DNA of 25,820 nucleotides from a virus: IMG/VR virus record IMGVR_UViG_3300032282_005234, positions 1-25,820 of that record; one strand, given 5' to 3'. The notes under the pieces are model-generated. The model ran no database searches. It had not been told where the DNA came from and saw only the letters and a program-made list of their open reading frames with translations. Shown here piece by piece: positions 12,382-25,820 of the stretch (its first letter is position 1; every line of letters begins with the position of its first letter). The position numbers were made by a program, and so were the translations under genes.

Positions 12382-14796
12382 TTATGGTCGTGTTGATGCG
12401 TTTTGATATGAGTGAATAGCACTTCCAGCATTATAATCTGTAGAAATTCCAGAATATTCTGCAATGGTTCCAATTGTATTTGATTCATTTACTATCTCTG
12501 TAAAGCTGGTAAGATAAGAAATGTATCTGTCTTTAGCATCATCTGCTGACAATTGATTTGGATAAATAGCAAAATATCCATAAGTTCCTATTGCATAGTT
12601 TTCAAGATTTGTATCTGAATTAATAAAAACATTATTAATGTTTTTATTTTCATAATATACACATATTATATGATAAGGCTCGTCTATAATAAGTGTTCTT
12701 GGATTTGTGTATAAATCTAAACCATTTACATATACATATAAAAATACGTTGCCTATATCCTGTGATAACTCTAATGTGTCTTTGTCAAATCTTAAATATT
12801 CTCCAGTAACACTGTTGTTTACTATATATTGATTTTGACTATCTTCGTTAATCCCGTCTGGTCTAAACCAGAACTCCAGTGTTTGAAATCCCGTTGTAGG
12901 AATTGTTGACATCATTACTGCTGTATTTCCATTATCAATTTTAATTCCAAAATTATTAGAACGAGATAAAATATTAAATTTATTAGATCTTAAATTATAG
13001 GTATGAAGAAGACTGGACCCTTCCTCATAATAGGGTTTAATTATATAATTTTTAGAATCAGATAAAACATCAATATTTTTATATATTGATATATTAAAAT
13101 TATCAATTCTTGGTTGATATAAAGAAGATAAGTCATTAGATAAAATAGTTATTCTTACTTTAACGTCAGATGCTGGAGCCCCCGTTTGTGAAAATTCAGG
13201 AATTTGTCCTCCATTTTTAACAACATGCCAATCTCCATTTAATTCTGTTTGTACTTGAACACAAACGCTTTGCATATGACTTGATAACAAATATTGATTA
13301 TTTGTTGTTGTTGCAGTATTCCAAGAAAGCTTGCTTCCAGCTATGCCGTAGAATAAAGAGGCAGGAATTGAATAGTTCCAGGTACCTTTTGCTCTTACAA
13401 CATTATCTGTAAATGATAAAACAAGATTATCTTCATATGAAACAATTGCTTCATAATAAGAATTTGAATCAATATAAGAATTAAAAATATCTAAATCGTC
13501 TGTCATATAAGTAGTATTATTTAAATATAATTTTGTAGTTGTTGCTGAAAAATTTGGGAATACGTTTCCAGAGGCGCTGCCACCACTATCTATATATATG
13601 TTTACAAAGTTATTTTTTACTGAAAAAAATATAGGAGTGGTTCCTGACGCTGCTTCTGTTTGTAAAAGAAGTACATCTGAATTGTTTGCATAAGTATAAT
13701 ATAACCCTAGACTTTCGTCCTCAGTTTTAGCAAGATAAACAAATTCTGAATCATCATTACCAGTAATCTTAAATATTATATTATCTTCAATGGGATCATC
13801 TAAATATACGGGCAAGGCGTCCCAGTCCACTATAGTAGACATAGAAAAATTATTTAATGAAATATAATTTAATAAATCATTAAATGCATAATCAAAACTT
13901 CCTGAATCTACATACATTGCACTTGATTTTTTATGTGTTAGCCCATTGTCAATTGTGTATAGGTTATTTATAATCCCGTCTTTAAATGATCTATCTGTAT
14001 CAAATGATTTTTCATACCACTTCATGCTTGGATTTTCTTGAATATCAAAAAAATCTCCATCGGTTTGCTTTACATAAGACTGTGGCTTGGCGTCTCCAAA
14101 ACCCCAAATCATGTGAGATCTTATTTGATTTTGTGACAAAGTATAATTATAAAAAGCTAGGGAGCTAAGTATGATTGGATTGTTTGGTGGCACAAAACTA
14201 AAATGTATATTGTTTTTATCTTCAAAATCTGTTTCAAATTGAAATGTAGAGGGCAGGGTAAAAGATTCTCCAGCTATTCCATTAATTGATATAGAAATTG
14301 TCCTATTAGAATAAGAAGCAAATACGTGAAGTTGAGATTCTGTAGACTTTATTTGCTTACTAGCCGTTCCAACTATTATATTTCCTGAATAAATATTAAA
14401 TGATATAACATCGTTAACTCTATATATATCTCCTATGTTTGCAGATATACTTGAATTTCCTATGGCGAGAAGACCTTGAACGGTATCAGTGTTGCTTGAC
14501 GGAATAGAAAACCATAACTCTATACCAAAAGATAGTTCTTCTGTTCCTTTTACAAAAGCATTATATTCATTATTTATATAGGCATCTGTATCTAGGTCTA
14601 CATAAAACCCCTTAACCTCTACATATTCGTTAGTATCTAGGTCTTTGTATGTAGAGGTATTAAGAGGTAATATGTCTGTATAGGTTGGGGCGGAATTAAA
14701 AACAAGACTATTACCTCTGCCTGTAAGGTCGCTGGTTGTATCTAAACTCCAAAAACCCAATGGCTTATCAGCTAAAACTTTTTTAATATATGACAT
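12382..14796 (-). CDS. Large LamG/concanavalin-like protein, probable tail adhesin or head/tail decoration
   Basis: An 804-aa all-beta protein. Residues about 1-235 are LamG-like: VLADKPLGFWSLDTTSDLTG, then LSFGIELWFSIPSSNTD, SISINGIAGESFTLPS and ILSSLAFYNYTLSQNQIRSH. A second sandwich-like part lies at about 290-460 (NFSMSTIVDWDAL, SVKNNFVNIYIDSGG). A third lies at about 630-765 (FQTLEFWFRPDGINEDSQNQ, YHIICVYYENKNINNVFINS, YFAIYPNQLSADDAKDRY). Such proteins bind glycans or ligands and are common as phage tail fibre or baseplate parts. No enzyme active site is evident. It begins at ATG 14796, only 7 nt after a TATAAT, so it may be leaderless. It sits between the oxygenase operon and the head module, which is unusual for a tail protein. 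Confidence 0.75.
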   Translation of the reverse strand: MSYIKKVLADKPLGFWSLDTTSDLTGRGNSLVFNSAPTYTDILPLNTSTYKDLDTNEYVEVKGFYVDLDTDAYINNEYNAFVKGTEELSFGIELWFSIPSSNTDTVQGLLAIGNSSISANIGDIYRVNDVISFNIYSGNIIVGTASKQIKSTESQLHVFASYSNRTISISINGIAGESFTLPSTFQFETDFEDKNNIHFSFVPPNNPIILSSLAFYNYTLSQNQIRSHMIWGFGDAKPQSYVKQTDGDFFDIQENPSMKWYEKSFDTDRSFKDGIINNLYTIDNGLTHKKSSAMYVDSGSFDYAFNDLLNYISLNNFSMSTIVDWDALPVYLDDPIEDNIIFKITGNDDSEFVYLAKTEDESLGLYYTYANNSDVLLLQTEAASGTTPIFFSVKNNFVNIYIDSGGSASGNVFPNFSATTTKLYLNNTTYMTDDLDIFNSYIDSNSYYEAIVSYEDNLVLSFTDNVVRAKGTWNYSIPASLFYGIAGSKLSWNTATTTNNQYLLSSHMQSVCVQVQTELNGDWHVVKNGGQIPEFSQTGAPASDVKVRITILSNDLSSLYQPRIDNFNISIYKNIDVLSDSKNYIIKPYYEEGSSLLHTYNLRSNKFNILSRSNNFGIKIDNGNTAVMMSTIPTTGFQTLEFWFRPDGINEDSQNQYIVNNSVTGEYLRFDKDTLELSQDIGNVFLYVYVNGLDLYTNPRTLIIDEPYHIICVYYENKNINNVFINSDTNLENYAIGTYGYFAIYPNQLSADDAKDRYISYLTSFTEIVNESNTIGTIAEYSGISTDYNAGSAIHSYQNASTRP

Positions 14797-14817: not shown

Positions 14818-15627
14818 TTAGCTATTAACAACATCTTCATATAAAACAACTTTTCCATTTTCAACATAAAGCATGTTTCTTGGATTTTCATAATCACAAC
14901 GAGCTTTTTCAATTTCATTCCATTTAAATGCTCCACGCTCTTGTTGATTTTTAAGCCATTCTTCAGTTCCTGCAAATGGAGTCATTATAAAGTTTCTAAT
15001 AAAATATTTTTGACCATTGGTTATATTGGTAACTCCATGATAATAGGGTTTTCTTGATGGAAATACTAAAATTTCTCCAGCTTTTGGCTTATAACTTACA
15101 ACATCTCCATCAATATAAAACTCTACACTTCCGCCATCATAATCATCATTAATATATGTTGTACAAGTAATAAAAAATTTGTTTCCTGGCATGTCTTTTT
15201 CAGATTCAATAAAATCTGTATGATATTGCATGGCTAAATTATTACTCATAGATTTTACATTATCTTTATATTTAGAAAAAGAAGATGATGCAAGATCGGC
15301 TCCTGGGGGTAGCTCAATATTATTAATATAAATATAATGATCAATTGCTTTTCCATATGCTTCAATTACTCTATCAGACAAATACTTTTCATCATCATAT
15401 CTTTGATTATATTCTACTCCTAAGGCTTTTTCTTCATTTATATTCTTTGATTGACTGTAAGTTCCAAAATGCGCCCAATCATCCCATTTTTTTAAATAAT
15501 ATTTTCCATTAGCATCGGCTTCTGATTTTTTCATAATTTCATAAAGCTTTGATACATCTGGAAGTAATCCTGTATATAAATGTATTTTTGGATAAAGTTC
15601 TGTATATGTTAAATCATTAGTATTCAT
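14818..15627 (-). CDS. 2-oxoglutarate/Fe(II)-dependent oxygenase (prolyl 4-hydroxylase-like) 1
   Basis: A 269-aa member of the 2OG-Fe(II) oxygenase superfamily, which couples 2-oxoglutarate decarboxylation to hydroxylation of a substrate. Metal ligands are His136 and Asp138 (YHTDF) and His197 (YYHGV); Lys207 (GQKYFI), ten residues on, should bind the 2-oxoglutarate carboxylate. The strand TTYINDDYDGGSVEF and PKAGEILVFPSRKPYYHG are P4H-like. It is the longest of the five paralogues, with about 50 extra C-terminal residues of unclear role (NEIEKARCDYENPRNMLYVE). Its ATG overlaps the previous stop (TAATG). As the last gene of the eight-gene operon it lies just before the LamG protein. The substrate is unknown. 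Confidence 0.88.
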   Translation of the reverse strand: MNTNDLTYTELYPKIHLYTGLLPDVSKLYEIMKKSEADANGKYYLKKWDDWAHFGTYSQSKNINEEKALGVEYNQRYDDEKYLSDRVIEAYGKAIDHYIYINNIELPPGADLASSSFSKYKDNVKSMSNNLAMQYHTDFIESEKDMPGNKFFITCTTYINDDYDGGSVEFYIDGDVVSYKPKAGEILVFPSRKPYYHGVTNITNGQKYFIRNFIMTPFAGTEEWLKNQQERGAFKWNEIEKARCDYENPRNMLYVENGKVVLYEDVVNS

Positions 15628-16241
15628 TATTCATATTCCTCTAGTGAAAATTCTCCTAAAATAAAATATTTATTTCCAGATTTTATTTCATGAGATTGAT
15701 GTTTAAATGGTTTATAAGTAGGAAATATTAATACGCTTCCTTGCTCTGGTTTAATTTTTATATTATGATCTGGAAATTCTATCTCTCCACCTTCATAATC
15801 ATCATTTATATAAATTAATATTGTAAATGTTTTTTTAATTGAATCTTCATAAGAATCAAAATGTGGACCCATTGATTGACCAGGAAAATATTTATTTATA
15901 GAAAAACTTTTTCTAATATAAAATTTTTCAATTTCTTTTGCTTTTGTATAATTTTTTGTACAAAGATATTGTGATTCAAAAATATTATTAATTAAATATA
16001 AAAGTTTTTTATCTAGATTTTCATTTCCTGATAAAGTAGATCTTAATATATGTTTTTTTTGACCATAAATATTTTTGCTATCATTACTTGCACTCCAATT
16101 ATTCCATTTTTCAATATATGGATAAGATAATTCATTTTTATCCATTTCTTCTAATAATTCAATATATTGTTTTGGACAATTAAAAGAATTTTTAAAATAA
16201 AAAATTGAATCATTATCTAAAGCTTCAAATTCATGATACAT
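15627..16241 (-). CDS. 2-oxoglutarate/Fe(II)-dependent oxygenase 2
   Basis: A 204-aa oxygenase. Ligands are His127 and Asp129 (GPHFDS), distal His181 (FKHQSHE) and Lys191 (GNKYFI), keeping the His-to-Lys spacing of ten. It has the family strand IYINDDYEGGEIEF and LIFPTYKPFKHQ. The N-terminal half is little conserved with its neighbours, apart from a WNNWS segment like WDDWAHF in oxygenase 1, which makes these two the closest pair by eye. It overlaps the upstream gene by 11 nt. The gene is extremely AT-rich, with long A/T runs, well below the GC of the head genes, which suggests separate acquisition or relaxed constraint. All catalytic residues are present, so it should be active. Confidence 0.88.
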   Translation of the reverse strand: MYHEFEALDNDSIFYFKNSFNCPKQYIELLEEMDKNELSYPYIEKWNNWSASNDSKNIYGQKKHILRSTLSGNENLDKKLLYLINNIFESQYLCTKNYTKAKEIEKFYIRKSFSINKYFPGQSMGPHFDSYEDSIKKTFTILIYINDDYEGGEIEFPDHNIKIKPEQGSVLIFPTYKPFKHQSHEIKSGNKYFILGEFSLEEYE

Positions 16242-16944
16242 TTTGATGTTCTCCGTAAGGTGTCAATCTAATTCCTTTTTCTTTTAAATCTTCCCATTCT
16301 TTAAACTGATCAGCCTGTTGAGCCCTAACTCCAGCAATTTCCAAAGCCCAAGCATCTTGAAGTTCTTGACTATATTCTGATTCAGCATAATCCCAGAAAG
16401 ATCCTATTGTATACCTATCTCCTTTTGAAACAACTTTAACTTCGTGTTCATTTTCATGTCCGCCTGCAAATGCAGCAAACATTCCAGCTTTTGGTTTAAA
16501 GCAAATTGGATGATCTTTAAAATTAAGTTCGCCACCTTCAAAATCATCATTTAAATATAAAAATGAAGCAATTTTACTTCTTTCAAAAGCATTATATTTA
16601 CCATTTGTACTATTATCTGAATGAAAACTTGCAAAAGCTCCTTCTATCCATTTTTGTGCATGATAACTAACTTCTTTTACTGGTCTTTGCATTGCTTCTT
16701 CAGTAACTTCTTGAAATTTCTTTTTTAATTGCATAAAATAATCTTTTGATAAATTGAATAATAATAAATCTTCATCTTCATCTTCAAAACCAAATGCATA
16801 AGATTCATAAAAAGAAATAGGCATCCATTGAAGTTTTTGATTTTCTATTCTATAATTCCAATAATTTATTATATTTTTACATTCTTCTAAAGAAATAAAA
16901 TTTTCATAAACAACTATATCATCTTTGTAAACAATTTTATTCAT
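16231..16944 (-). CDS. 2-oxoglutarate/Fe(II)-dependent oxygenase 3
   Basis: A 237-aa oxygenase. Ligands are His108 and Asp110 (SFHSDNS), distal His167 (ENEHEVK) and Arg177 (GDRYTI), the Arg replacing the Lys seen in three of the paralogues. Family strands FLYLNDDFEGGELNF and PKAGMFAAFAGGHENEHEV are clear. The N-terminus (VVYENFISLEECKNIINYWN) is the usual helix that opens P4H-like domains. The C-terminal 50 residues are helical (YSQELQDAWALEIAGVRAQQ) with an extension absent from the others. It overlaps the upstream gene by 8 nt and the downstream gene by 11 nt. The substrate cannot be told from the sequence. Confidence 0.88.
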   Translation of the reverse strand: MNKIVYKDDIVVYENFISLEECKNIINYWNYRIENQKLQWMPISFYESYAFGFEDEDEDLLLFNLSKDYFMQLKKKFQEVTEEAMQRPVKEVSYHAQKWIEGAFASFHSDNSTNGKYNAFERSKIASFLYLNDDFEGGELNFKDHPICFKPKAGMFAAFAGGHENEHEVKVVSKGDRYTIGSFWDYAESEYSQELQDAWALEIAGVRAQQADQFKEWEDLKEKGIRLTPYGEHQNVS

Positions 16945-17620
16945 TTTTTTCCTTATGTTTTTTAATGGTCCAAAAAAAAGGAGATGTATATCTTGTTCCT
17001 TGTAAAACTGGTCTTACACCATGAATGTAATTCATATCACCTGGAAAAAAATATGCTGCTCTTTTCTTTGGTTTAAACTCTATACCTTGAAGAGGAAAAT
17101 ATAATTCTCCACCTTCATAATCATCATTTATATAAAATATAGAAGCTATGTCGTACCAGGGGAATGCGTTTGGTGTTCCAGCATCTGGACCTTCATGTAA
17201 TTCTTTATCTGCATGAGGTTCTTGTCTATCTCCAATATTCCATCTTACTATTGCTGGTGTTGTAGCTTCACAATCAATATTAAAAAAATCACTTACTTCA
17301 TTTTTTAATCTGGCAAACATTTCGTAAATAATATCTACAACTTTTTGATTTGTTTTTTGTAATGTATGTAATGTTGCTACTCTGTCCATCCAAGGATTGG
17401 CATCGTATATTACGGTCCCATTTTCATTTTTTTTAGTTATAGTAAAATCCCATGAAGTATTATTTTTAGCAAAATCAAATAAGATATCATGTTCTTCTTC
17501 GGTCATAAAATTTTCTAATTCTACAATCATATTTTCTGAATTTCCAAAAAATCCTGAAGGTGTATTAGAGACATGATCCGAATTTTCTAAATTAGTTGGA
17601 ATTCTATTTTCTTCAATCAT
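16937..17620 (-). CDS. 2-oxoglutarate/Fe(II)-dependent oxygenase 4
   Basis: A 227-aa oxygenase. Ligands are His136 and Asp138 (EPHADKE), distal His200 (YIHGVRP) and Arg210 (GTRYTS). It has the family strand FYINDDYEGGELYFP and a PKKRAAYFFPGDMNYIHGV segment very close to P4H-like enzymes of marine phages and bacteria. TPAIVRWNIGDRQEPHADKE is the strand leading into HxD. The N-terminus MIVELENFMTEEEHDILFDF is the standard opening helix. It overlaps the upstream gene by 4 nt (ATGA), so translation is coupled. This copy is the most canonical of the set. Confidence 0.9.
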   Translation of the reverse strand: MIEENRIPTNLENSDHVSNTPSGFFGNSENMIVELENFMTEEEHDILFDFAKNNTSWDFTITKKNENGTVIYDANPWMDRVATLHTLQKTNQKVVDIIYEMFARLKNEVSDFFNIDCEATTPAIVRWNIGDRQEPHADKELHEGPDAGTPNAFPWYDIASIFYINDDYEGGELYFPLQGIEFKPKKRAAYFFPGDMNYIHGVRPVLQGTRYTSPFFWTIKKHKEKNE

Positions 17621-18339
17621 TTATACTTCCTTCTTGACCAAAAATATTTTTTATAAACATCTCCGCCAGGTTTTCTAAATTCTTTAGAAGATTCTGCAAA
17701 TCTATTAATTATTTCTTCTTGATTATGTATTTTCAATTCTGATTCCCAATCTTCTCTTTTAAAAGGAATAATTTGAACAAATGGTGTTCCCGCTGGTATT
17801 AAACCTTTAAAATTTTTTTGTAAAAAAAATGGCATTAATCCTGGAGTTTTTAACTTGTCATTATCAATGATACCAGAAACTGTCATAAATGGAAGATCGT
17901 ATCTATTTACTGGATTTAAGTATATAGCACTATACCCATCTGGGAGTTCTGGGGACCAGGATGGGTACCAATGAAATGGAGACTCTATATATCCATTTGG
18001 AACAATAAAACCTGGCATAGGAGGTCTTGTTGCACAAAAATCTTCATATCCTTCGGGAGATTTTACTTTCATTATTCCATTTTTTTCATAAAAAAATAAA
18101 TCACAGGGTGTTTTTATTACATATCCACTAATAAAAAAATCTAAAATTGCAGGACAAGCCTTAAATGAAGGCATTTTTTCTCCATCATAATTTAATGCAT
18201 ATTCTTCTGTGTTTGGATTTTTTATATATTTATCTGCTTCAGAGTACCATTTTGGAATTACTTTGTAAGTAGATTCTGGATAATAATCTTTTATGTGTAA
18301 ATTGTATTCTCTATTAGAATGAAAAATTATTTTATTCAT
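17617..18339 (-). CDS. Phage protein of unknown function, distantly DUF6065-like in layout
   Basis: A 240-aa protein within the oxygenase operon. It opens with YKVIPKWYSEADKYIKNP, then FKACPAILDFFISGYVIKTP with CDLFFYEK, then FHWYPSWSPELPDGY, DLPFMTVSGIID, and PAGTPFVQIIPFKREDWESE. No HxD oxygenase motif is present. The order (Cys-Pro and small-Gly helix, a strand in 'tPcDl', a central 'lPf...sG', a late 'aGtPf.qiiPf') parallels the two paralogues downstream of the promoter, which have AYNCFPLTLTNGLGW, IIPFTTLISTG and ANTPIIALMP. A common origin is therefore inferred. Similar proteins turn up next to oxygenases and methyltransferases in environmental phages. No function is assigned. Confidence 0.7.
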   Translation of the reverse strand: MNKIIFHSNREYNLHIKDYYPESTYKVIPKWYSEADKYIKNPNTEEYALNYDGEKMPSFKACPAILDFFISGYVIKTPCDLFFYEKNGIMKVKSPEGYEDFCATRPPMPGFIVPNGYIESPFHWYPSWSPELPDGYSAIYLNPVNRYDLPFMTVSGIIDNDKLKTPGLMPFFLQKNFKGLIPAGTPFVQIIPFKREDWESELKIHNQEEIINRFAESSKEFRKPGGDVYKKYFWSRRKYK

Positions 18340-19039
18340 ATTTATTTATGGTTTCTAATCTTATTGCTTTAACTTCATGAGATCCTATTTTATTTCCTTT
18401 GTGATCTGTTGCATTTCTATAAAAATTTCCCCACATTCCTTTTTTATTTAATTCAACTAAAGTTTCGGAATATTTAAAAGAATTTTTAAAAGAATCTGTT
18501 GGAATTTTGTCACTATTATAAATATTAATTTTTGAATTTTGTAAATAAGAAAGAGATATTGGCATCAAAGCAATAATTGGTGTATTTGCTTTTAATACTA
18601 TTTCTTCATTTGCTTTTGTAACTCTTGCAGCACAAGGAAATTCTCCTCTAAAAAATCCAGTGCTTATGAGTGTTGTAAAAGGAATTATTCCTTCAGTAAA
18701 CATATTTGGAATTGGCATTGCTAACATGCTTACATTTTCTTCTGTAATAAACATTAAACCTGTTTTAAAACTTATTGAAGCATTTTCTCTTTCTGTATAA
18801 GCAAATTCATGTCCTTCTATTAATTGAACATGATTTCCATTTGACTGATTAATACCGTCCCATTTAAATACAATATCTCCTGGAAAGGAAATTCCCCATC
18901 CCAGCCCGTTTGTAAGAGTTAATGGAAAACAATTATATGCATGTTTATCAAATGTGCTATCCATCCAATCTCTTTTAATTGGAAGTTGTTTAATATTGGC
19001 TGTGATATTGTTAATTTTATAAACATTTATATTATACAT
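18332..19039 (-). CDS. DUF6065-like protein, paralogue B
   Basis: A 235-aa protein with the pattern I associate with DUF6065: IKRDWMDSTFDKHAYNCFPL then TLTNGLGWGISFPGDIVFKW, a glycine-containing strand, PNMFTEGIIPFTTLISTGFF and ANTPIIALMPISL. It is plainly homologous to the adjacent upstream gene and shares the C-terminal ATDHKGNKIGSHEV, encoded by a 38-nt stretch identical in both. No known catalytic motif is evident. It overlaps both neighbours by 8 nt and is probably co-translated. Since the family usually travels as single copies in phage or bacterial modification clusters, a partner role to the oxygenases is a guess from context only. Confidence 0.75.
   Translation of the reverse strand: MYNINVYKINNITANIKQLPIKRDWMDSTFDKHAYNCFPLTLTNGLGWGISFPGDIVFKWDGINQSNGNHVQLIEGHEFAYTERENASISFKTGLMFITEENVSMLAMPIPNMFTEGIIPFTTLISTGFFRGEFPCAARVTKANEEIVLKANTPIIALMPISLSYLQNSKINIYNSDKIPTDSFKNSFKYSETLVELNKKGMWGNFYRNATDHKGNKIGSHEVKAIRLETINKYE
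18369..18406. repeat. 38-nt direct repeat, copy 1 (in paralogue B)
   Basis: Identical to 19072-19109. It starts ttaacttcatgagatcct and encodes, on the minus strand, the DHKGNKIGSHEV tail of both DUF6065-like proteins. Confidence 0.9.
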
Positions 19040-19757
19040 TTTTTATATTTTCAATATTAAAATTAAAACTATTAACTTCATGAGATCCTATTTTATTTCC
19101 TTTGTGATCAATAGCTTTTATATACCAATCTGAAGTTTTATTATTATCTTCTCCATATTTTTTAAGGGATAAGGCATATTCTTTTGTATTGTGTGGGTAA
19201 AATAAATCTTTAAAATTATTTATTTTATCAAAACAATAATAATCAAGTTTAGTATTTTGAAATTGTAAAATTGAAATTGGCAATATGCTAGCTACTGGAG
19301 TGTTTGCTTTTATTTCAATTATTGAATTTTTTTTTGTTATTTTATTAACTACATGGGTTGCTCCAGTAAAAAATGAAGTTGCTAATATTGTTGTAAAAGA
19401 TTGTATTCCTTCAATAAAATAATTTGGAGCAGGCATTATTAAACAGCTGACTCCTTCTTCTGTTTTAAATAATGTTTTTGTATTAAAAGCTATTGTTCCA
19501 AGACCTCTGTCAACATAACAAAATTCTTCTCCTGAATAAAATTTAATTTTAGATTTAGATTTATTTGCTTCTCCATTCCATTCAAAAATAATATCTTCTG
19601 GAAATGAAATTGAAAATCCTAACTTATTTGCAAGAGTTAAGGGAAAACATTTATAAGCTCCATGATCCATATGCTCAGACATCCATTCTCTTTTTACAGA
19701 AAAAGGTTCTATATTAGCACATTTTTTTTCCATTTGATATGCTTTTAAATTATACAT
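19032..19757 (-). CDS. DUF6065-like protein, paralogue A
   Basis: A 241-aa protein with VKREWMSEHMDHGAYKCFPL, TLANKLGFSISFPEDIIFEW, PNYFIEGIQSFTTILATSFF and ANTPVASILPISILQFQNTK, matching paralogue B through most of its length (roughly 40% by eye). Both start MYN and end in a DHKGNKIGSHEV-like tail, so they arose by tandem duplication. The tail is far more conserved at DNA level than the rest. It begins 4 nt after the stop of the first oxygenase gene and overlaps paralogue B by 8 nt. No catalytic residues can be named. Confidence 0.75.
   Translation of the reverse strand: MYNLKAYQMEKKCANIEPFSVKREWMSEHMDHGAYKCFPLTLANKLGFSISFPEDIIFEWNGEANKSKSKIKFYSGEEFCYVDRGLGTIAFNTKTLFKTEEGVSCLIMPAPNYFIEGIQSFTTILATSFFTGATHVVNKITKKNSIIEIKANTPVASILPISILQFQNTKLDYYCFDKINNFKDLFYPHNTKEYALSLKKYGEDNNKTSDWYIKAIDHKGNKIGSHEVNSFNFNIENIKNV
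19072..19109. repeat. 38-nt direct repeat, copy 2 (in paralogue A)
   Basis: Exact second copy of 18369-18406, 703 nt away, within the 3' end of the tandem paralogue. Confidence 0.9.
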
Positions 19758-19761
19758 AATT

Positions 19762-20406
19762 TTATTTATTCATAATTCCATTATGAAATTCTGGTGTATG
19801 TGCATTTTCATTATAATCAAGCATTGTAACTATAGAATATTTTGTTCCTTTTTTAACTGGCATTGCTCTATGAGAAAACAAATAAGTTGATGGGAAAATA
19901 TATAAATCACCAGCCTTTGGTTTAAATGAAATTCCAAGTCTACCAAAACTTAATTCTCCACCTTCATAATCATCATTTATATAAGCTACTAATGAAACAG
20001 TACAGTAATACGACCATCCGTGATCTGCATGTTCTTGAAAATGTTGTCCAGGACCATATTTAATTACATTCATAGCTTCCCAATATTTCATTTCAATATT
20101 ATACATATTGCAATAATCATTTACTGCATTTATTTTTGCATTATATGCATCTTGCCATATTTCATCTACTACTGGTCTTGGATTTTCTAATAATTTTTTA
20201 ATTTTAAAATCTACGCAATCTCTATATTCTGGCATTTTTTGTTTATATCCTACATATGCTTCTTGCCATTCAAGATTGTTTTCATTAATATAATTTTCTA
20301 TTCTTTGTACTAAATTTAATTCTTTTTTTAAAATATTTCTGTACACCCAGATCCCAGGAAACAGTTGTTCTTTTTCTAATTGGGCAGGTAATATTTGACT
20401 ATTCAT
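19762..20406 (-). CDS. 2-oxoglutarate/Fe(II)-dependent oxygenase 5 (first gene of operon)
   Basis: A 214-aa oxygenase. Ligands are His126 and Asp128 (QEHADHG), distal His179 (FSHRAMP) and Lys189 (GTKYSI), again ten apart. Family segments are VAYINDDYEGGELSFG and PKAGDLYIFPSTYLFSHRA. It opens the modification operon. A minus-strand TATAAT at 20430-20435 and a purine-rich GAGAAAGAG before ATG 20406 would drive it. The N-terminal half (LEWQEAYVGYKQKMPEYRDC) is divergent from the other four, suggesting that the copies came together over time or have diverged in substrate. All active-site residues are intact. Confidence 0.88.
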   Translation of the reverse strand: MNSQILPAQLEKEQLFPGIWVYRNILKKELNLVQRIENYINENNLEWQEAYVGYKQKMPEYRDCVDFKIKKLLENPRPVVDEIWQDAYNAKINAVNDYCNMYNIEMKYWEAMNVIKYGPGQHFQEHADHGWSYYCTVSLVAYINDDYEGGELSFGRLGISFKPKAGDLYIFPSTYLFSHRAMPVKKGTKYSIVTMLDYNENAHTPEFHNGIMNK

Positions 20407-20462: not shown

Positions 20463-21176
20463 ATGACAATTATACCAGATAATATTAAGCTTGAATATCA
20501 TATGGACAAAGTAAAAGATTATTTAAATTTTGAAAAATTTGACAAAGAATATGGAATTGATACTGCTACTAACGGGTTTTTAGATTTATGGAACATCTCT
20601 AATAATGAATCTGTTTATCCTGATTGGGAAAAAAATGATAACTTATATCCAGGTTCTAACGGTTATCAAACTGCTGCCATAAAGCATCTTAATAAAATTA
20701 ACGAAATTTTATATAAACTTATATCAAATATTAATGAATATTCATTTATTGATGTAGGATGTGGAAAAGGCAAGGTTATTATTAATAATATTATTAAAGA
20801 TGCATTATATAAAAAAAATATTGGAATAGAAATTGATAAAAATTTATGTGATATTTCTATAAATAATTTAAATATTATAAAAAATAAATTTAATATAAAT
20901 AATGTTGAAATTTATAATAAAAATATATTAGATTATAATTGTATTAAAGAACCATCAATATATTTCTTTTTTAATCCATTTAACAATTATATTTATAAAA
21001 AATTTTTAATAAAAAATAAAAAACAATTTTTAGAATATCCTACTATAATTGTTCAAATCTATCCTTTTTATCCAACTCTTGGAGAAAATACTGATTTTAT
21101 TGAATTTCCAATAGAAGAAAACATGCAATTTAAAAAAATATATAATGAAAAATATATTTTAATATATTCTTCTTAA
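20463..21176 (+). CDS. Class I SAM-dependent methyltransferase
   Basis: A 237-aa protein and the only plus-strand gene seen. Motif I is FIDVGCGKGKVI (about residues 96-107), the acidic end of strand 2 is GIEID, and motif IV is YFFFNPF, as in small protein- or metabolite-methylating class I enzymes. The N-terminal FDKEYGIDTATNGFLDLW and YPGSNGYQTAAIKHL are typical of a group of short bacterial and phage methyltransferases with a 'FD..yG.dT' opening. The NPF tetrad argues against a DNA adenine (NPPY/DPPY) or cytosine (PCQ) enzyme. Base composition is extreme, with many runs of A and T. It is convergent with the Phe/Pro-rich gene (7 nt apart) and divergent from the oxygenase operon. The target is unknown. 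Confidence 0.83.
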   Translation: MTIIPDNIKLEYHMDKVKDYLNFEKFDKEYGIDTATNGFLDLWNISNNESVYPDWEKNDNLYPGSNGYQTAAIKHLNKINEILYKLISNINEYSFIDVGCGKGKVIINNIIKDALYKKNIGIEIDKNLCDISINNLNIIKNKFNINNVEIYNKNILDYNCIKEPSIYFFFNPFNNYIYKKFLIKNKKQFLEYPTIIVQIYPFYPTLGENTDFIEFPIEENMQFKKIYNEKYILIYSS

Positions 21177-21183
21177 AAATATT

Positions 21184-21615
21184 TTAATATATAGCTTTCC
21201 ATGCTCCAGCTACTCTTACAAAACCTGCGTTTCCTGCAACTCCTGAAGCTGGACCTGCTTTTTTCCAAGCTCCAGCAACTCTTACATAAACTGAAATAGC
21301 GGTTGCTCTTTTCCAAACTCCTCCAACTCTAACCCAATACCCACTATTTGCTGGTGGAAAATAAGGTGGACTAAAAAATGCTGGTGGAAAAAACGGTGGA
21401 AAAAACGGTGGACCAAAAAATGCTGGTGGACTAAAAAATGCTGGTGGACTAAAAAATGCTGGTGGAAAAAACGGTGGAAAAAACGGTGGACTAAAAAATG
21501 CTGGTGGACTAAAAAATGCTGGTGGAAAAAATGGAGGTGAAAAATAAGCTTTTGGCGTACGCTTATTATTTTTAACGCTTGAAATTTTTATATTTTTCTT
21601 TACACTTTTTCTCAT
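21184..21615 (-). CDS. Phe/Pro-rich repeat protein with three VRVxGxWK units
   Basis: A 143-aa protein of three parts. Residues 1-23 are strongly basic (MRKSVKKNIKISSVKNNKRT). Residues about 24-90 are almost only Phe, Pro, Ala and Ser, in units such as PPAFFS and PPFF, with thirteen Pro-Pro pairs and no charge. Residues about 91-143 hold three copies of an aromatic-VRV-x-G-x-WK motif (WVRVGGVWKRA, YVRVAGAWKKA, FVRVAGAWKAI), a short beta unit found at the ends of many phage tail or fibre proteins. No signal peptide or enzyme motif is seen. It follows two fibre genes and is probably a small adhesin or fibre tip, possibly a substrate of the nearby hydroxylases. The start has a weak ribosome site. 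Confidence 0.75.
   Translation of the reverse strand: MRKSVKKNIKISSVKNNKRTPKAYFSPPFFPPAFFSPPAFFSPPFFPPFFPPAFFSPPAFFSPPAFFGPPFFPPFFPPAFFSPPYFPPANSGYWVRVGGVWKRATAISVYVRVAGAWKKAGPASGVAGNAGFVRVAGAWKAIY
21350..21546. repeat. Coding minisatellite of 12- and 18-nt units
   Basis: On the plus strand, units ggtggaaaaaac (12 nt, Phe-Phe-Pro-Pro) and ggtggactaaaaaatgct (18 nt, Ser-Pro-Pro-Ala-Phe-Phe) alternate in mixed order. A compound block of two 12-mers followed by 18-mers occurs twice. All units are multiples of three, so gain or loss keeps the frame. Confidence 0.92.
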
Positions 21616-21628
21616 GATTATCTTTCTA

Positions 21629-22057
21629 TTACGGAGTATAAACTATTACAATGTCGCCATCTGATGCGCTATATGGATTTAAAGTGCTATTAAAATTTGC
21701 AGTAGTATCAATAAAAATTGTACGAATTGGAATATTTAATGTGCTTCCCAGGGAAACAGCTCCATATGATTTAATAACTGATTGAGTTGATCCACCAGCT
21801 GCTGATCCTGTTCCTTGAATTGTAACAGAAGAATTTGTTAAAGATGCATTAGCAATAGCTGATAATGTATTAGTTGATCCTGAAATTGATTTATTTGTTA
21901 AAGTGTCTGTGGTTGCTTTTCCTACCAGCGTGTCTGTTGCTGCTGGAAGTGTGACTACGCTTGTTCCCGCAACTGCTGGAGCAGAAATGGTTACTGTTCC
22001 AGATGTAGATCCATCAAGATCAATACTGGTTTTTGGTTTAAAACTTTTCTCTGCCAT
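21629..22057 (-). CDS. Small fibre-like protein related to the C-terminus of the large fibre
   Basis: A 142-aa protein. Residues about 20-60 read VTLPAATDTLVGKATTDTLT then NKSISGSTNTLS, nearly the same as VTLPDATDTLVGKATTDTLT and two related copies in the adjacent large fibre. The C-terminal part (IPIRTIFIDTTANFNSTLNP, ending GDIVIVYTP) is beta-rich and unique. The Thr/Ser/Ala-rich, Cys-free composition is typical of trimeric fibre shafts. It starts at ATG 22057 with AAGGAG 9 nt upstream, 29 nt after the large fibre gene, with a TGTTATAAT (22086-22094) overlapping that gene's stop. It is probably a fibre accessory or tip formed by partial duplication. Confidence 0.7.
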   Translation of the reverse strand: MAEKSFKPKTSIDLDGSTSGTVTISAPAVAGTSVVTLPAATDTLVGKATTDTLTNKSISGSTNTLSAIANASLTNSSVTIQGTGSAAGGSTQSVIKSYGAVSLGSTLNIPIRTIFIDTTANFNSTLNPYSASDGDIVIVYTP

Positions 22058-22085: not shown

Positions 22086-22094
22086 ATTATAACA
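22086..22094 (-). promoter_or_regulatory. Possible extended -10 for the small fibre genes
   Basis: TGTTATAAT on the minus strand (TGn-TATAAT) overlaps the large fibre's stop codon, 29 nt upstream of the next ATG. This is the same class of element as at 3786 and 7759, but no terminator precedes it. Confidence 0.35.
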
Positions 22095-25000
22095 TTACTT
22101 TTTGTAATTTCACAGTAGCATTAGTTCCTGAAGCATCTGTAATTGTTACTGTAAGTATCATATTTGTAGAAGATACTGAAGCTGCTACTGCAATTCCCGT
22201 CATCTTTCCACCAGTTTCAATAATTGCAAATTCATTAGAATCAACAGAAGTTCCATCTGTTTGAACCATAATTTGAGAGCTTCTTACTTTGGATCCTTGC
22301 TTAATTGAAAGTACGTATCTAATTGTTGTAAATCCGCTCAGGGCTGTTGTATCAACAGTGGTAGCTGTATTAAGAGATACGGTTGTTGCTGCTGCTGAGG
22401 TACCGATGGTCTTGTTTGTAAGGGTATCTGTAGTTGCTTTACCAACTAAAGTATCGGTAGCATCTGGAAGCGTAAGAGTCTTTGCTGTAGTAAATGCTGA
22501 AGTAAGTGTTCCAGTAATACCCGTTGTTCCAGTTACGTCAATATTAAGTTTCTTTGTAGCATCAGATACATCTACAAAGTATGTAGTAGAATCTGACAAA
22601 GATTTGTTTGTAAGGGTTTGAGTATCTGTTGTTCCAAGAATTGTTCCTGAAGGAACAGCTTTACCAAGAACTTGAGTTGATGTAAGTACATCAGTTCCAT
22701 TAATTTTATATGTTTTACCTGTGGCAACATCAACATTTTCTGAATGGAGGAATGATGCTGTTGATGAATACCAGTTAATAGTTTTATCTGTAGCACCCTT
22801 AATTGTAATACCCGCACCATTTGCAGTAACATCTGTAGGGCTTGCAACTTTTGCAATTTCAATATTTGAATCTGCTACAGCAAGGGTAGATGAGTTAACT
22901 GTTGTGGTTGTTCCGCTTACCGTTAGATTTCCATTAATAGTAATTGTGCTATTTGAATTTCCTAGATTTATAGCATTTACGCCTGTTCCTGCGGTAGCAA
23001 TATTTATTGTTCCTGTAGTAAGACCAGCTCCAATTGCCATTGTTCCAGTAGTAATGTTAGGAAATAATGAAGTTGCAGTTCCAGCTGCGGAAGCAGCACT
23101 TATACTATCAATTACTGGAGTAGTTAATGTTAATCCTGCAATTGTAGTTACTGTTGTTCCAGAAGATATAAGTGTTGATCCAATTGTTGGAGCGCTATAA
23201 CCAGAAACTGATGCCCATGATAAAGTTCCAGCTCCATCATTGGTAAGATATTTACCTGAATTTGAAGTTTGTGAAGGAAGCAATGCTGTTGCTGCTGTCA
23301 TTGCAGTTGTAGCACCAGTTCCACCTGCTGCTATTGGCAAAGTTCCAGCGGTCATGGTATTTGTTCCATTTCCATAAACTGCTTGATTAGCTGATATGGA
23401 TGTAATTCCAGTTCCTCCTTGAGCAACTTGAATATAACCAATAGGAGTTACATATCTATAATCAAGTGTAACTCCTCCTCCTATTGTTCCTGAAGTAACT
23501 GTGCCTAAAGTAGTAATATTTGTAGAGCCAGCCCATGTTGAAAGGGCTGTATTTTCTACATTTCCAATACCAATTGATGTTCTGTGTGTTGAAGCTGATT
23601 CAGCAGATACTGTATTGTCGGCATTATATTTAGGAAAAGTAATTGCACTTGGATTTGTTTGTGTAAAAATGTTTGAACCAAGTGTAGTAGCACCCAGATT
23701 GGTACGAGCTGTAGAGGCATCTGTGGCACCCGTTCCACCTTTGTTTACGGCTATTGTTGTTCCAGACCATGTACCAGATGTTATAGTTCCAACTGTTGTA
23801 AGTGAAGAAGTTGTTACTCCAGATGCAAGGGTATCTCCTGAAAGTGTTCCCGCTGCTGCGGTGACAGTAATTGCTGCAGAGCCATCAAATGATACTCCAT
23901 TAATATTCCTTGCTGTAGCAAGTTTTGTTGCTGTATCAGCATTACCTGTAAGTGCTCCAGTAAATCCTGTAGAAGTAACGCTTGTCAATCCAGCTAAAGT
24001 TGTAGCAGAAGAACCTAAGTTTATGTCAGTTGTTCCAACTGTTACTTTAGAATTTGTAAGTCCTGCATTTGGAATTGTTGCAACACTTGATATGACTCCA
24101 CCTGAAGTTGTTGCTACATATCCAGCGGTTGAAAGTGGAAGAGTTACGGTTCCTGTAAAGGTTGGAGAGGCAATGGGGGCTTTTTGACCAACTAATGTTG
24201 CAAGGGAAGAAGCTGTTGACTCATCTGCAATAATTAAATCACTAAGTTCTTTAAGGGTGTCATACGCTGCTCCAGCGCCATTAATTAAATTATCTACAGC
24301 AGTTTTAACAAACTCTGTAGTTGCAACTTGAGTATTGTTTGTTGCAGAAACTGCTGTGGGGGCTGATGGGGTACCAGTAAAGGTTGGAGATGCAAGAGGA
24401 GCTTTTAAATCAAGTGCAGATTGTGTGGCTGTTGATATTGGTTTATTTGCATCTGAAGTATTATCTACGTTACCAAGACCTACGTGCGTTTTGGTTACGC
24501 CAGAAACAGTGCCAGTAAAAGTTGGAGAAGCTATGGGTGCATATGTTGAAGATGCAGTTGAAGAGGCTAATTTAGAATCAATTTGTGTTTGAATTGCAGA
24601 GGTAACACCATCAAGATATCCAATTTCAGTATCAGAAACATCGGTTACTCTAGCTTGAATTGTTGATGTATTTACAGAAATTGCTCCAGTCGAGTCATTA
24701 TATGAAAGACCAGTTCCTAGGTTATCTCCTATTGCATCTTGGGCTCTTTCATTTGTAAAATAAAGACCAGTACCTTCTGGAATATCTGTTGTAGTCAATA
24801 ATCCCACAACGGTATCTGTATAATTTTCTGCGGTAGTTATTGCATTTGAAATATCTGTGGAAGTAGATGATTGATATGATCCAAAATCTGCAACATCTAC
24901 TGGCGTATATCCAAGGGCATCGGTTACATCTGTATCTGAAAGAGATATACTTCCAGTTCTTGTGTTGAATGCTGTAACACCGCTATTTGATATAGCACCT

Positions 25001-25820
25001 GTGCTGTCATTATAAGAAAGTCCCGTTCCCAGGTTATCTCCTACGGCATCTTGAGCTCTTTCATTTGTAAAATAAAGGTTAGTTCCTTCTGCAATGTCTG
25101 TTGTAGTTTGATCATCAACATATTTCTTTGTTGCAGCATCATTGTCTGAAGAAGGGGCTGCAAGTCCTGTAATACTATTTGATCCCATTGCAATATTGCC
25201 AGACATTGTACCGCCAGCTTTTGGAAGCTTTGTTGCAATACTATTAGTTACTGTTGTAGCAAAATCTTTATCTGCTCCCAATGCATCTGATAATTCTTTA
25301 AGTGTATCAAGGGTTGATGGAGCACCATTAATAAGATTAGTAATTTGAGTATTTGTGTAAGTTTCTGCGTATGTTTTAGTTGCCAGCGCAGAAGTGTCTG
25401 CAATTCCATGAACACTTGTAGAAGCAGAGTTGTGGGTGCTTACAGCGTCATTTGCATAAGTTTTAGTTGCCAGAGCAGAAGTGTCTGCAATTCCATGAAC
25501 ACTTGTAGAAGCAGAGTTGTGGGTGCTTACTGCACCACTTGCTGCAGAGTCTGCGTATGTTTTAGTTGCAAGGGCTGAGGTGTCAGAAATTCCATGAACG
25601 CTTGTAGTTGCTGAATTATGAGTACTTACGGAAGTATCTGCGTATGTTTTAGTTGCAAGGGCTGAGGTGTCAGCAATTCCATGAACGCTTGTAGTTGCTG
25701 AATTATGATTGCTTACGGCTGTGGTTGCAAACCCTTCAGCATTATCTTGGGCTGTTCCTGCTGCTGCATCCGCATAAGTTGTTGTAGCTAATTCTGAGGT
25801 GTCAGCAATTCCATGAACGC
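22087..25820 (-). CDS. Giant repeat-built tail fibre / structural protein (partial, N-terminus beyond right edge)
   Basis: The frame is open from the right edge to TAA at 22087, at least 1,243 aa; a TTG at 25281 sometimes taken as the start is internal. It is built of fibre repeats. About five VHGIADTSALATKTYAD units lie near the visible N-terminus. Two copies of GLYFTNERAQDAIGDNLGTG-type units with LSYNDSTGAIS follow, then several APIASPTFTGTV units, NKGGTGATDASTARTNLGA-like units, a TGNLTVSGTT-like region, and TLPDATDTLVGKATTDTLTN units. The C-terminal 100 residues form a beta domain (TIRYVLSIKQGSKVRSSQIM, ending ATVKLQKVML). These modules are known from fibre or baseplate proteins of marine and freshwater phages. 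It has no Cys and is Thr/Ser/Ala/Gly-rich, as expected for a trimeric shaft. It is likely the main receptor-binding or shaft protein. Confidence 0.85.
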   Translation of the reverse strand, partial: VHGIADTSELATTTYADAAAGTAQDNAEGFATTAVSNHNSATTSVHGIADTSALATKTYADTSVSTHNSATTSVHGISDTSALATKTYADSAASGAVSTHNSASTSVHGIADTSALATKTYANDAVSTHNSASTSVHGIADTSALATKTYAETYTNTQITNLINGAPSTLDTLKELSDALGADKDFATTVTNSIATKLPKAGGTMSGNIAMGSNSITGLAAPSSDNDAATKKYVDDQTTTDIAEGTNLYFTNERAQDAVGDNLGTGLSYNDSTGAISNSGVTAFNTRTGSISLSDTDVTDALGYTPVDVADFGSYQSSTSTDISNAITTAENYTDTVVGLLTTTDIPEGTGLYFTNERAQDAIGDNLGTGLSYNDSTGAISVNTSTIQARVTDVSDTEIGYLDGVTSAIQTQIDSKLASSTASSTYAPIASPTFTGTVSGVTKTHVGLGNVDNTSDANKPISTATQSALDLKAPLASPTFTGTPSAPTAVSATNNTQVATTEFVKTAVDNLINGAGAAYDTLKELSDLIIADESTASSLATLVGQKAPIASPTFTGTVTLPLSTAGYVATTSGGVISSVATIPNAGLTNSKVTVGTTDINLGSSATTLAGLTSVTSTGFTGALTGNADTATKLATARNINGVSFDGSAAITVTAAAGTLSGDTLASGVTTSSLTTVGTITSGTWSGTTIAVNKGGTGATDASTARTNLGATTLGSNIFTQTNPSAITFPKYNADNTVSAESASTHRTSIGIGNVENTALSTWAGSTNITTLGTVTSGTIGGGVTLDYRYVTPIGYIQVAQGGTGITSISANQAVYGNGTNTMTAGTLPIAAGGTGATTAMTAATALLPSQTSNSGKYLTNDGAGTLSWASVSGYSAPTIGSTLISSGTTVTTIAGLTLTTPVIDSISAASAAGTATSLFPNITTGTMAIGAGLTTGTINIATAGTGVNAINLGNSNSTITINGNLTVSGTTTTVNSSTLAVADSNIEIAKVASPTDVTANGAGITIKGATDKTINWYSSTASFLHSENVDVATGKTYKINGTDVLTSTQVLGKAVPSGTILGTTDTQTLTNKSLSDSTTYFVDVSDATKKLNIDVTGTTGITGTLTSAFTTAKTLTLPDATDTLVGKATTDTLTNKTIGTSAAATTVSLNTATTVDTTALSGFTTIRYVLSIKQGSKVRSSQIMVQTDGTSVDSNEFAIIETGGKMTGIAVAASVSSTNMILTVTITDASGTNATVKLQKVML
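24668..25110. repeat. Two copies of the LYFTNERAQDA module in the fibre gene
   Basis: About 130 nt at 24668-24800 recur at 24978-25110 with roughly 85% identity by eye. They encode IPEGTGLYFTNERAQDAIGD and IAEGTNLYFTNERAQDAVGD, each followed by NLGTGLSYNDSTGAIS. Confidence 0.75.
25395..25820. repeat. Tandem VHGI repeats of the fibre gene
   Basis: The string attccatgaac recurs five times, at spacings of 87, 99, 87 and 132 nt (29, 33, 29 and 44 codons). It marks units that read on the minus strand as VHGIADTSALATKTYAD plus VSTHNSATTS. The longer spacings carry in-frame inserts, and the last copy is cut by the window edge. Confidence 0.88.

Follow-up and report, generated by a model that had tools for sequence, protein, structure and literature searches.

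A Pro-Pro/Phe-Phe stalk in a family of phage tail-type adhesins as a candidate target of phage prolyl 4-hydroxylase-like enzymes

P4H-type 2OG-Fe(II) oxygenases are common non-core genes in aquatic phages, and in a survey, the viral use of prolyl 4-hydroxylase (P4H) is said to "remain cryptic" (PMC9301287). Is a Pro-rich protein encoded close to such enzymes in a phage genome their substrate? The question is raised by the window analysed here, i.e. the whole stretch of 25,820 nucleotides of IMG/VR virus record IMGVR_UViG_3300032282_005234.

The Pro/Phe-rich protein and its gene neighbourhood

A first-pass annotation had pointed out a small protein with thirteen Pro-Pro pairs about 0.8 kb from a group of P4H-like genes, and had proposed on this proximity that its repeat tract may be hydroxylated, for stiffness or as a basis for glycosylation, to give a self-modifying receptor-binding tip. 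Both starting observations were confirmed, as the minus-strand ORF (143 aa, 28 Pro and 25 Phe) holds 13 Pro-Pro pairs and the nearest P4H-like gene, Pa, starts at 20406, 0.78 kb away. The features of the region are listed below.

22087..25281, minus strand: tail fibre gene, same frame continuing toward the window end (phrog_454 tail fiber, E 7.5e-21)
21629..22057, minus strand: short fibre-type protein, directly upstream of the adhesin (fibre cluster c1; phrog_6002, E 3.1e-5)
21184..21615, minus strand: Pro/Phe-rich adhesin-like protein, 143 aa (ORF; relatives at 18 loci)
21352..21537, minus strand: PPxFF/PPFF tract, aa 27-88 of the adhesin (sequence; unit statistics, shuffles)
21187..21339, minus strand: C-terminal part of the adhesin, aa 93-143, three VRV[GA]G[VA]WK repeats (conserved in L001, L137 and L140)
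20463..21176, plus strand: methyltransferase-like gene between adhesin and enzymes (PF02390, E 5.7e-4, below the cut-off)
19762..20406, minus strand: P4H-like 2OG-Fe(II) oxygenase Pa (PF13640, E 7.8e-14; HxD..H..K)
19032..19757, minus strand: DUF6065-like protein, cluster c4 (alignment; neighbour statistics)
18332..19039, minus strand: DUF6065 protein, cluster c4, predicted dUTPase-like fold (PF19541, E 1.9e-26; model)
17617..18339, minus strand: DUF6065-related protein, cluster c3, D6065b (hhalign to c4, probability 96.8)
16937..17620, minus strand: P4H-like oxygenase Pb (PF13640, E 8.8e-7)
16231..16944, minus strand: P4H-like oxygenase Pc (PF13640, E 1.3e-9)
15627..16241, minus strand: P4H-like oxygenase Pd (PF13640, E 3.8e-11)
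14818..15627, minus strand: P4H-like oxygenase Pe (PF13640, E 1.5e-9)

The minus-strand order is thus tail fibre, short fibre-type gene, adhesin, Pa, three DUF6065-type genes and Pb-Pe, interrupted between the adhesin and Pa by the methyltransferase-like gene on the plus strand, so that adhesin and enzymes need not share a transcript in the window. The oxygenase genes are followed by an 804-aa protein (12382-14796) that matches phrog_11584 and appears LamG-like by eye, the cluster of which is common beside the portal in relatives. The portal protein of the window is 54% identical to those of Streptomyces phages such as Wakanda, from which an actinobacterial phage is likely.

The tract contains 11 PP.?FF/FFPP units; when the residues of the protein were shuffled 5000 times, the mean number was 0.42 and no shuffle gave more than 4. 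No Pfam match was found for the adhesin at E<=1, and its only two PHROG matches were weak (E 0.1 and 0.2). A Gly-X-Y repeat is absent from the protein, which is not classed as collagen-like, and the residue that follows PP is mostly Ala or Phe. An antisense artefact was ruled out, since no plus-strand ORF of at least 60 aa in the window covers the tract and in relatives the tract is in frame with other domains. When contigs of bacterial genomes were scanned, tract-like ORFs were found at 19 of 119 loci, none of these 19 with an oxygenase; in our reading, they look like antisense or low-complexity frames.

The C-terminus of the adhesin is made of three [YWF]VRV[GA]G[VA]WK repeats and thus forms a tip distinct from the tract. 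The proposal that the tract itself is the receptor-binding tip was therefore abandoned: it is a length-variable stalk placed between other domains. When the window protein was compared to the closely related L137, L140 and L001, the flanks proved conserved and the length of the tract differed, which is the behaviour of a stalk.

A family of tail-type adhesins with PPxFF stalks

Phage tail-type adhesins of this kind form a large family, in which the window protein is one of the short forms; they are built of a variable N-terminus, a PPxFF stalk and an exchangeable C-terminal tip. The search for relatives gave 18 loci, and at least 117 were retrieved with a DNA pattern spanning two hexads. A locus was counted as PPxFF when four or more PP.?[FYL]F units fell within 100 aa of an ORF, and 107 such loci were found among the matches listed. 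The N-terminal part of the members is FN3-like by eye or a long fibre, and the tips are Hint/intein-like, short, Cys-rich or, in L034, a Peptidase_S74 chaperone. The window protein carries the PPxFFy hexads and is encoded in the tail module beside a fibre gene, located upstream; it is devoid of the FN3-like N-terminal domains and the Hint-like tip found in the commonest members. Their position, their fibre neighbours and the Peptidase_S74 tip of L034 suggest that these proteins are phage receptor-binding proteins.

The hexads (1267, from 121 distinct proteins among the matches listed) have Phe at positions 4 and 5 in 99.3% of cases, although part of this PP/FF invariance is selection by sampling, because the pattern used demands FF-PP-FF-PP once per locus. 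In the same set, position 3 takes various residues (G 45%, S 16%, A 10%, also L, V, R and others), position 6 is small and the Pro codons are mixed; the free third position and the mixed Pro codons are not products of the sampling pattern. As position 3 and the Pro codons vary around an invariant PP and FF, the constraint acts at the protein level.

Regarding the tips, a 25-member alignment of the Hint-like ones matched the Pho RadA intein (3.6e-7) and a bacterial intein-like domain (8.8e-6). These tips lie C-terminal to the tract (L003, L004, L006, L014, L015 and others), with a C..DT start and HN near the end, and the Cys is absent from some variants (SVGVNTL). These domains may act in cleaving the tip or in rearranging it. 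The automatic tip classes are rough, with 21 tips classed as "other" though the printed examples are Hint-like. The adhesins of the window and L014 gave no match by tblastn against 50,697 GenBank phage records; low-complexity sequence is masked by BLAST, and a match confined to the tract could escape this search.

Association of PPxFF stalks with oxygenases

The five window enzymes Pa-Pe all match PF13640 (E 7.8e-14 to 8.8e-7, all over the curated cut-off and above 27 bits), and the HxD..H iron ligands and the K/R for 2-oxoglutarate are present in the five of them. This HxD..H..K/R set is intact in 501 of the 507 relatives with letters in all four columns. The nearest solved relatives by profile are prolyl 3-hydroxylase 1, a Bacillus P4H, PiuC-type enzymes, lysyl hydroxylases, P4HA2 and PHD2, mainly prolyl or lysyl hydroxylases, which makes Pa-Pe candidate peptidyl prolyl hydroxylases. 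A tblastn search linked Pa distantly to cyanophage proteins, with 231 records matched at identities that all lay below 60%.

The enzymes belong to a cassette with a conserved order in relatives, adhesin-(sulfotransferase-AspH)-Pa-DUF6065-Pb-Pe/Pc-Pd, in which the Pa type is the oxygenase nearest to the tract. Among the matches listed, the first gene downstream of the adhesin was Pa in 53 of 138 adhesin entries, a gene outside the named clusters in 34 on the same strand and 11 on the other, a sulfotransferase in 17, an opposite-strand Pb in 12, the contig end in 7 and others in 4. The sulfotransferase and Asp/Asn beta-hydroxylase-like genes stand between the adhesin and Pa in a subset of phages (L004:10754-11473, L006:11333-11941). 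A glycosyltransferase was no regular part of the PPxFF cassette in the neighbour-cluster statistics. The DUF6065 proteins (17617-19757 in the window, and relatives) are close cassette partners with a predicted dUTPase-like fold, the model resembling dUTPases in fold searches (best E 2.7e-4; Z 11); D6065b had no Pfam match in the profile search, and a full-text literature search for DUF6065 returned no paper.

The co-occurrence of stalks and oxygenases was measured with an HMM built from the five window proteins, used in the same way for PPxFF loci and controls. A PF13640-type oxygenase was detected at 88 of the 107 PPxFF loci among the matches listed, compared to 6 of 120 random viral loci and 7 of 120 loci with (Gly-Pro-Pro)n, taken with a (GPP)4 pattern. 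Where a collagen-like ORF was present, the number was 6 of 60. For the 124 PPxFF genes in oxygenase loci among the matches listed, the nearest oxygenase lay at a median of 64 nt and was on the same strand in 108. When duplicates were merged by hand, 94 of 108 distinct PPxFF records among the matches listed had a match in the locus DNA. Whole-record PF13640 searches, which covered the 19 tract loci lacking a locus match, the 18 first relatives and the window, gave 9 further records above the cut-off among the other 14, 3 with sub-cut-off matches only and 2 with none, raising the total to 103 of 108 among the matches listed; the two records without any oxygenase were of 8.5 and 13.5 kb. A PF13640 match was present in 18 of the 19 whole records formed by the first relatives and the window. 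Thus, the finding that would have spoken against the first-pass annotation, homologues regularly lacking a nearby oxygenase, did not appear in these records, and the co-occurrence, with three kinds of control, among them the stalk swap described below, and a conserved gene order, favours the link between adhesin and oxygenases beyond mere proximity, even if the role of the tract as a tip did not stand.

A sharper control was provided by a second stalk type with a single Pro, FTPFxF, which is found with similar N-termini and Hint-like tips (full scan, 111 stretches; 97 loci with at least 4 units). An oxygenase was present at 31 of these 97 loci, at a median distance of 4.5 kb, and several of the FTPFxF adhesins with a nearby oxygenase, among those examined, had a single one of type Pd. 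Over the whole scan, the same oxygenase types occurred without a PP tract at 34 of 110 loci; one of these, L575, counts in the YYNPP scan as a locus with a PP tract. Neighbours were compared within 1.5 kb downstream, where at least 1.5 kb of sequence was present, with one adhesin per 90% cluster and PPxFF adhesins taken from the matches listed. Under these conditions, an oxygenase followed 43 of 57 PPxFF clusters versus 4 of 44 FTPFxF clusters (p 7e-12; before clustering, 90 of 110 versus 9 of 80), whereas the adjacent fibre gene was similarly frequent in both (49/57 vs. 34/44, p 0.30). DUF6065 was found downstream in 30/57 vs. 0/44, the c9/c24 family in 2/57 vs. 23/44 and the DUF6065-related c3 in 3/57 vs. 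25/44. The sulfotransferase (PF03567) and the Asp/Asn hydroxylase (PF05118) were each present at 17 of 126 PPxFF loci among the matches listed and at 2 of 97 FTPFxF loci.

An oxygenase-fold family without a Pfam match (L678:6161-6808 and 37 relatives) accompanies FTPFxF adhesins, with up to 3 copies directly downstream. The c9 model (pLDDT 92) matches 2OG oxygenases such as a Pseudomonas putida P4H, and c9 retains an H-D-H, H, R pattern. The related c24 showed no clear iron ligands by eye in its representative sequence. A generic Pro/aromatic classifier (counts 18/4/12/46) was dropped as main evidence, since DUF6065-related proteins score in it as false positives.

To follow the association along descent, a tree of the N-terminal domain was used from which the tract was excluded (90 rows). 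The stalk changed 8 times in this tree, and in all 7 independent switches the oxygenase went along with it (sign test, p 0.016); this result was obtained in 192 of 200 pairings, the rest giving 6 with 1 undecided. For the alternative oxygenase (c9/c24), 3.1 of 7 pairs showed a change opposite to that of the PP stalk (p 0.25). In the portal tree, with 7 independent pairs and at least 2 oxygenases required, 3.0 pairs changed in the same way, 0.1 in the other way and 3.9 showed no difference (p 0.25), a trend as on the N-terminal tree that is not significant.

The same picture was examined in 81 portal relatives, where a PP repeat and an oxygenase coincided in 17, a PP repeat alone was found in 0, an oxygenase alone in 14 and neither in 50; oxygenases were therefore present at 14 of the 64 relatives without a PP repeat, some of these 14 loci being cut off. 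When at least 6 kb of the tail side was available, the numbers were 17, 0, 8 and 20 of 45, respectively. The PP repeats of these relatives include VTPPVTPP and YYNPPVYYNPP, and the oxygenase-free adhesins have VGVGVG, TPTPTP or TTTT linkers; L192 has a TPTPTP/TNPG tract with one oxygenase.

Probable hydroxylation of the stalk and alternative explanations

Since the family almost always travels with a block of P4H-like enzymes, the PPxFF stretch is a strong and testable candidate target of these common phage enzymes, and we consider it probable that Pa-Pe hydroxylate the PP pairs of a phage tail-type adhesin in which the PPxFF tract serves as a stalk that can be lengthened. In such a mechanism, the stalk would link a virion-proximal part to a host-facing C-terminal part, the adhesin would be produced together with its fibre neighbours, and the oxygenases would hydroxylate the PP prolines after translation, before or during assembly. 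The product would probably be 4-hydroxyproline, and the modification may stiffen the stalk (poly-proline II) or alter its surface. The classic site at which P4H acts in collagen is Pro-Pro-Gly. In the family, PP is followed most often by Gly (45% among the matches listed), although Ala or Phe mostly take this place in the window protein. Counting against this proposal are the same oxygenase types without a PP tract, the two PPxFF records without oxygenase and the opposite-strand gene that parts the adhesin from the enzymes in the window; five enzymes also seem more than one repeat needs.

The main rival explanation, which we regard as unlikely, is that the oxygenases act elsewhere, on other fibre proteins, host surface molecules or small metabolites, with stalk and enzymes being exchanged as one mobile tail-module block. 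The adjacency of stalk and enzymes makes such co-transfer likely, and the tip tree cannot break their linkage, because it contains just 2 supported stalk switches, the tips being placed between stalk and enzymes. Other substrates would also fit the presence of oxygenases without PP tracts at FTPFxF-scan and portal loci, the several oxygenase types per phage and the roles in nitrogen/2-oxoglutarate control and DNA repair proposed for cyanophage 2OG oxygenases in an earlier report (PMC3037559). Against this explanation stand an enzyme set that changes with the stalk type when the adjacent fibre gene does not, and the unrelated PP repeats (VTPP, YYNPP) of portal relatives that also accompany oxygenases. 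Moreover, five PPxFF adhesins with an FTPFxF-like tip have both P4H-type and c9-type enzymes, and this retention of the P4H type suggests that the P4H-type set follows the stalk.

It is very improbable, in our opinion, that the oxygenases modify the adhesin at Phe, or at Asp/Asn in the tip, rather than at Pro, with the PP pairs required only for docking of the enzymes or for the form of the stalk. FF varies no more than PP, a subset of cassettes includes an Asp/Asn beta-hydroxylase-like gene and the cassette holds several oxygenases, but the single-Pro FTPFxF stalks also hold Phe, mostly without the PF13640 enzyme set, and the nearest solved relatives are mainly prolyl hydroxylases. A passive, unmodified aromatic stalk or hydrophobic anchor, associated with the enzymes without any functional basis, would be compatible with the free variation of stalk length between close relatives; given the strength and specificity of the association with oxygenases in the controls, the stalk swap and the N-terminal tree, it is scarcely to be expected.

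The proposed hydroxylation of the PP stalk has partial counterparts in other systems. Work by Eriksson from 1999 reportedly dealt with a prolyl 4-hydroxylase and Pro-rich viral repeats of chlorovirus PBCV-1. Both cases share a virus that encodes a P4H-family enzyme plus Pro-rich repeat proteins as possible substrates, although PBCV-1 is a eukaryotic virus with a single enzyme and other repeat motifs, whereas the phages analysed here encode a conserved block of several enzymes, five of them in the window, beside one stalk gene. Plant extensins have S-P-P repeats with aromatic residues and dedicated P4Hs, a resemblance to the PPxFF stalk for which no homology is claimed. Collagen-like phage fibres also have a Pro-rich repetitive stalk in a tail-type protein, but the PPxFFy hexad is devoid of Gly-X-Y periodicity and, unlike PPxFF loci, collagen-like viral loci seldom have an oxygenase. 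The 2OG-Fe(II) oxygenases of aquatic phages (PHROG 61) described in two reports (PMC12774648, PMC3037559) belong to the same superfamily as Pa-Pe. No PP-repeat ORF was found near an oxygenase in three annotated cyanophage regions, and a fourth cyanophage/marine virus region, L686, showed scattered PP in minus-strand frames only. Literature searches, with subscription journals mostly outside their coverage, returned no paper on hydroxylated phage fibre tracts.

With a defined repeat that accompanies these enzymes and a matched stalk-swap control, the viral P4H question becomes a simple peptide assay. Beyond the window, we put forward only tentatively a pairing code in aquatic phages, with exchangeable Pro/aromatic stalks each bearing its own hydroxylase set (PF13640 plus DUF6065 for PPxFF, a different 2OG-oxygenase-fold family for FTPFxF); hydroxyproline-bearing fibres, possibly sulfated in a subset, would then be a common way in which phages modify themselves, and would supply the role of phage P4Hs that has long been missing. 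If the hydroxylation of the stalk is true, phages would alter the proline chemistry of their own adhesins, and the maturation of their fibres would be tied to the oxygen, iron and 2-oxoglutarate of the host.
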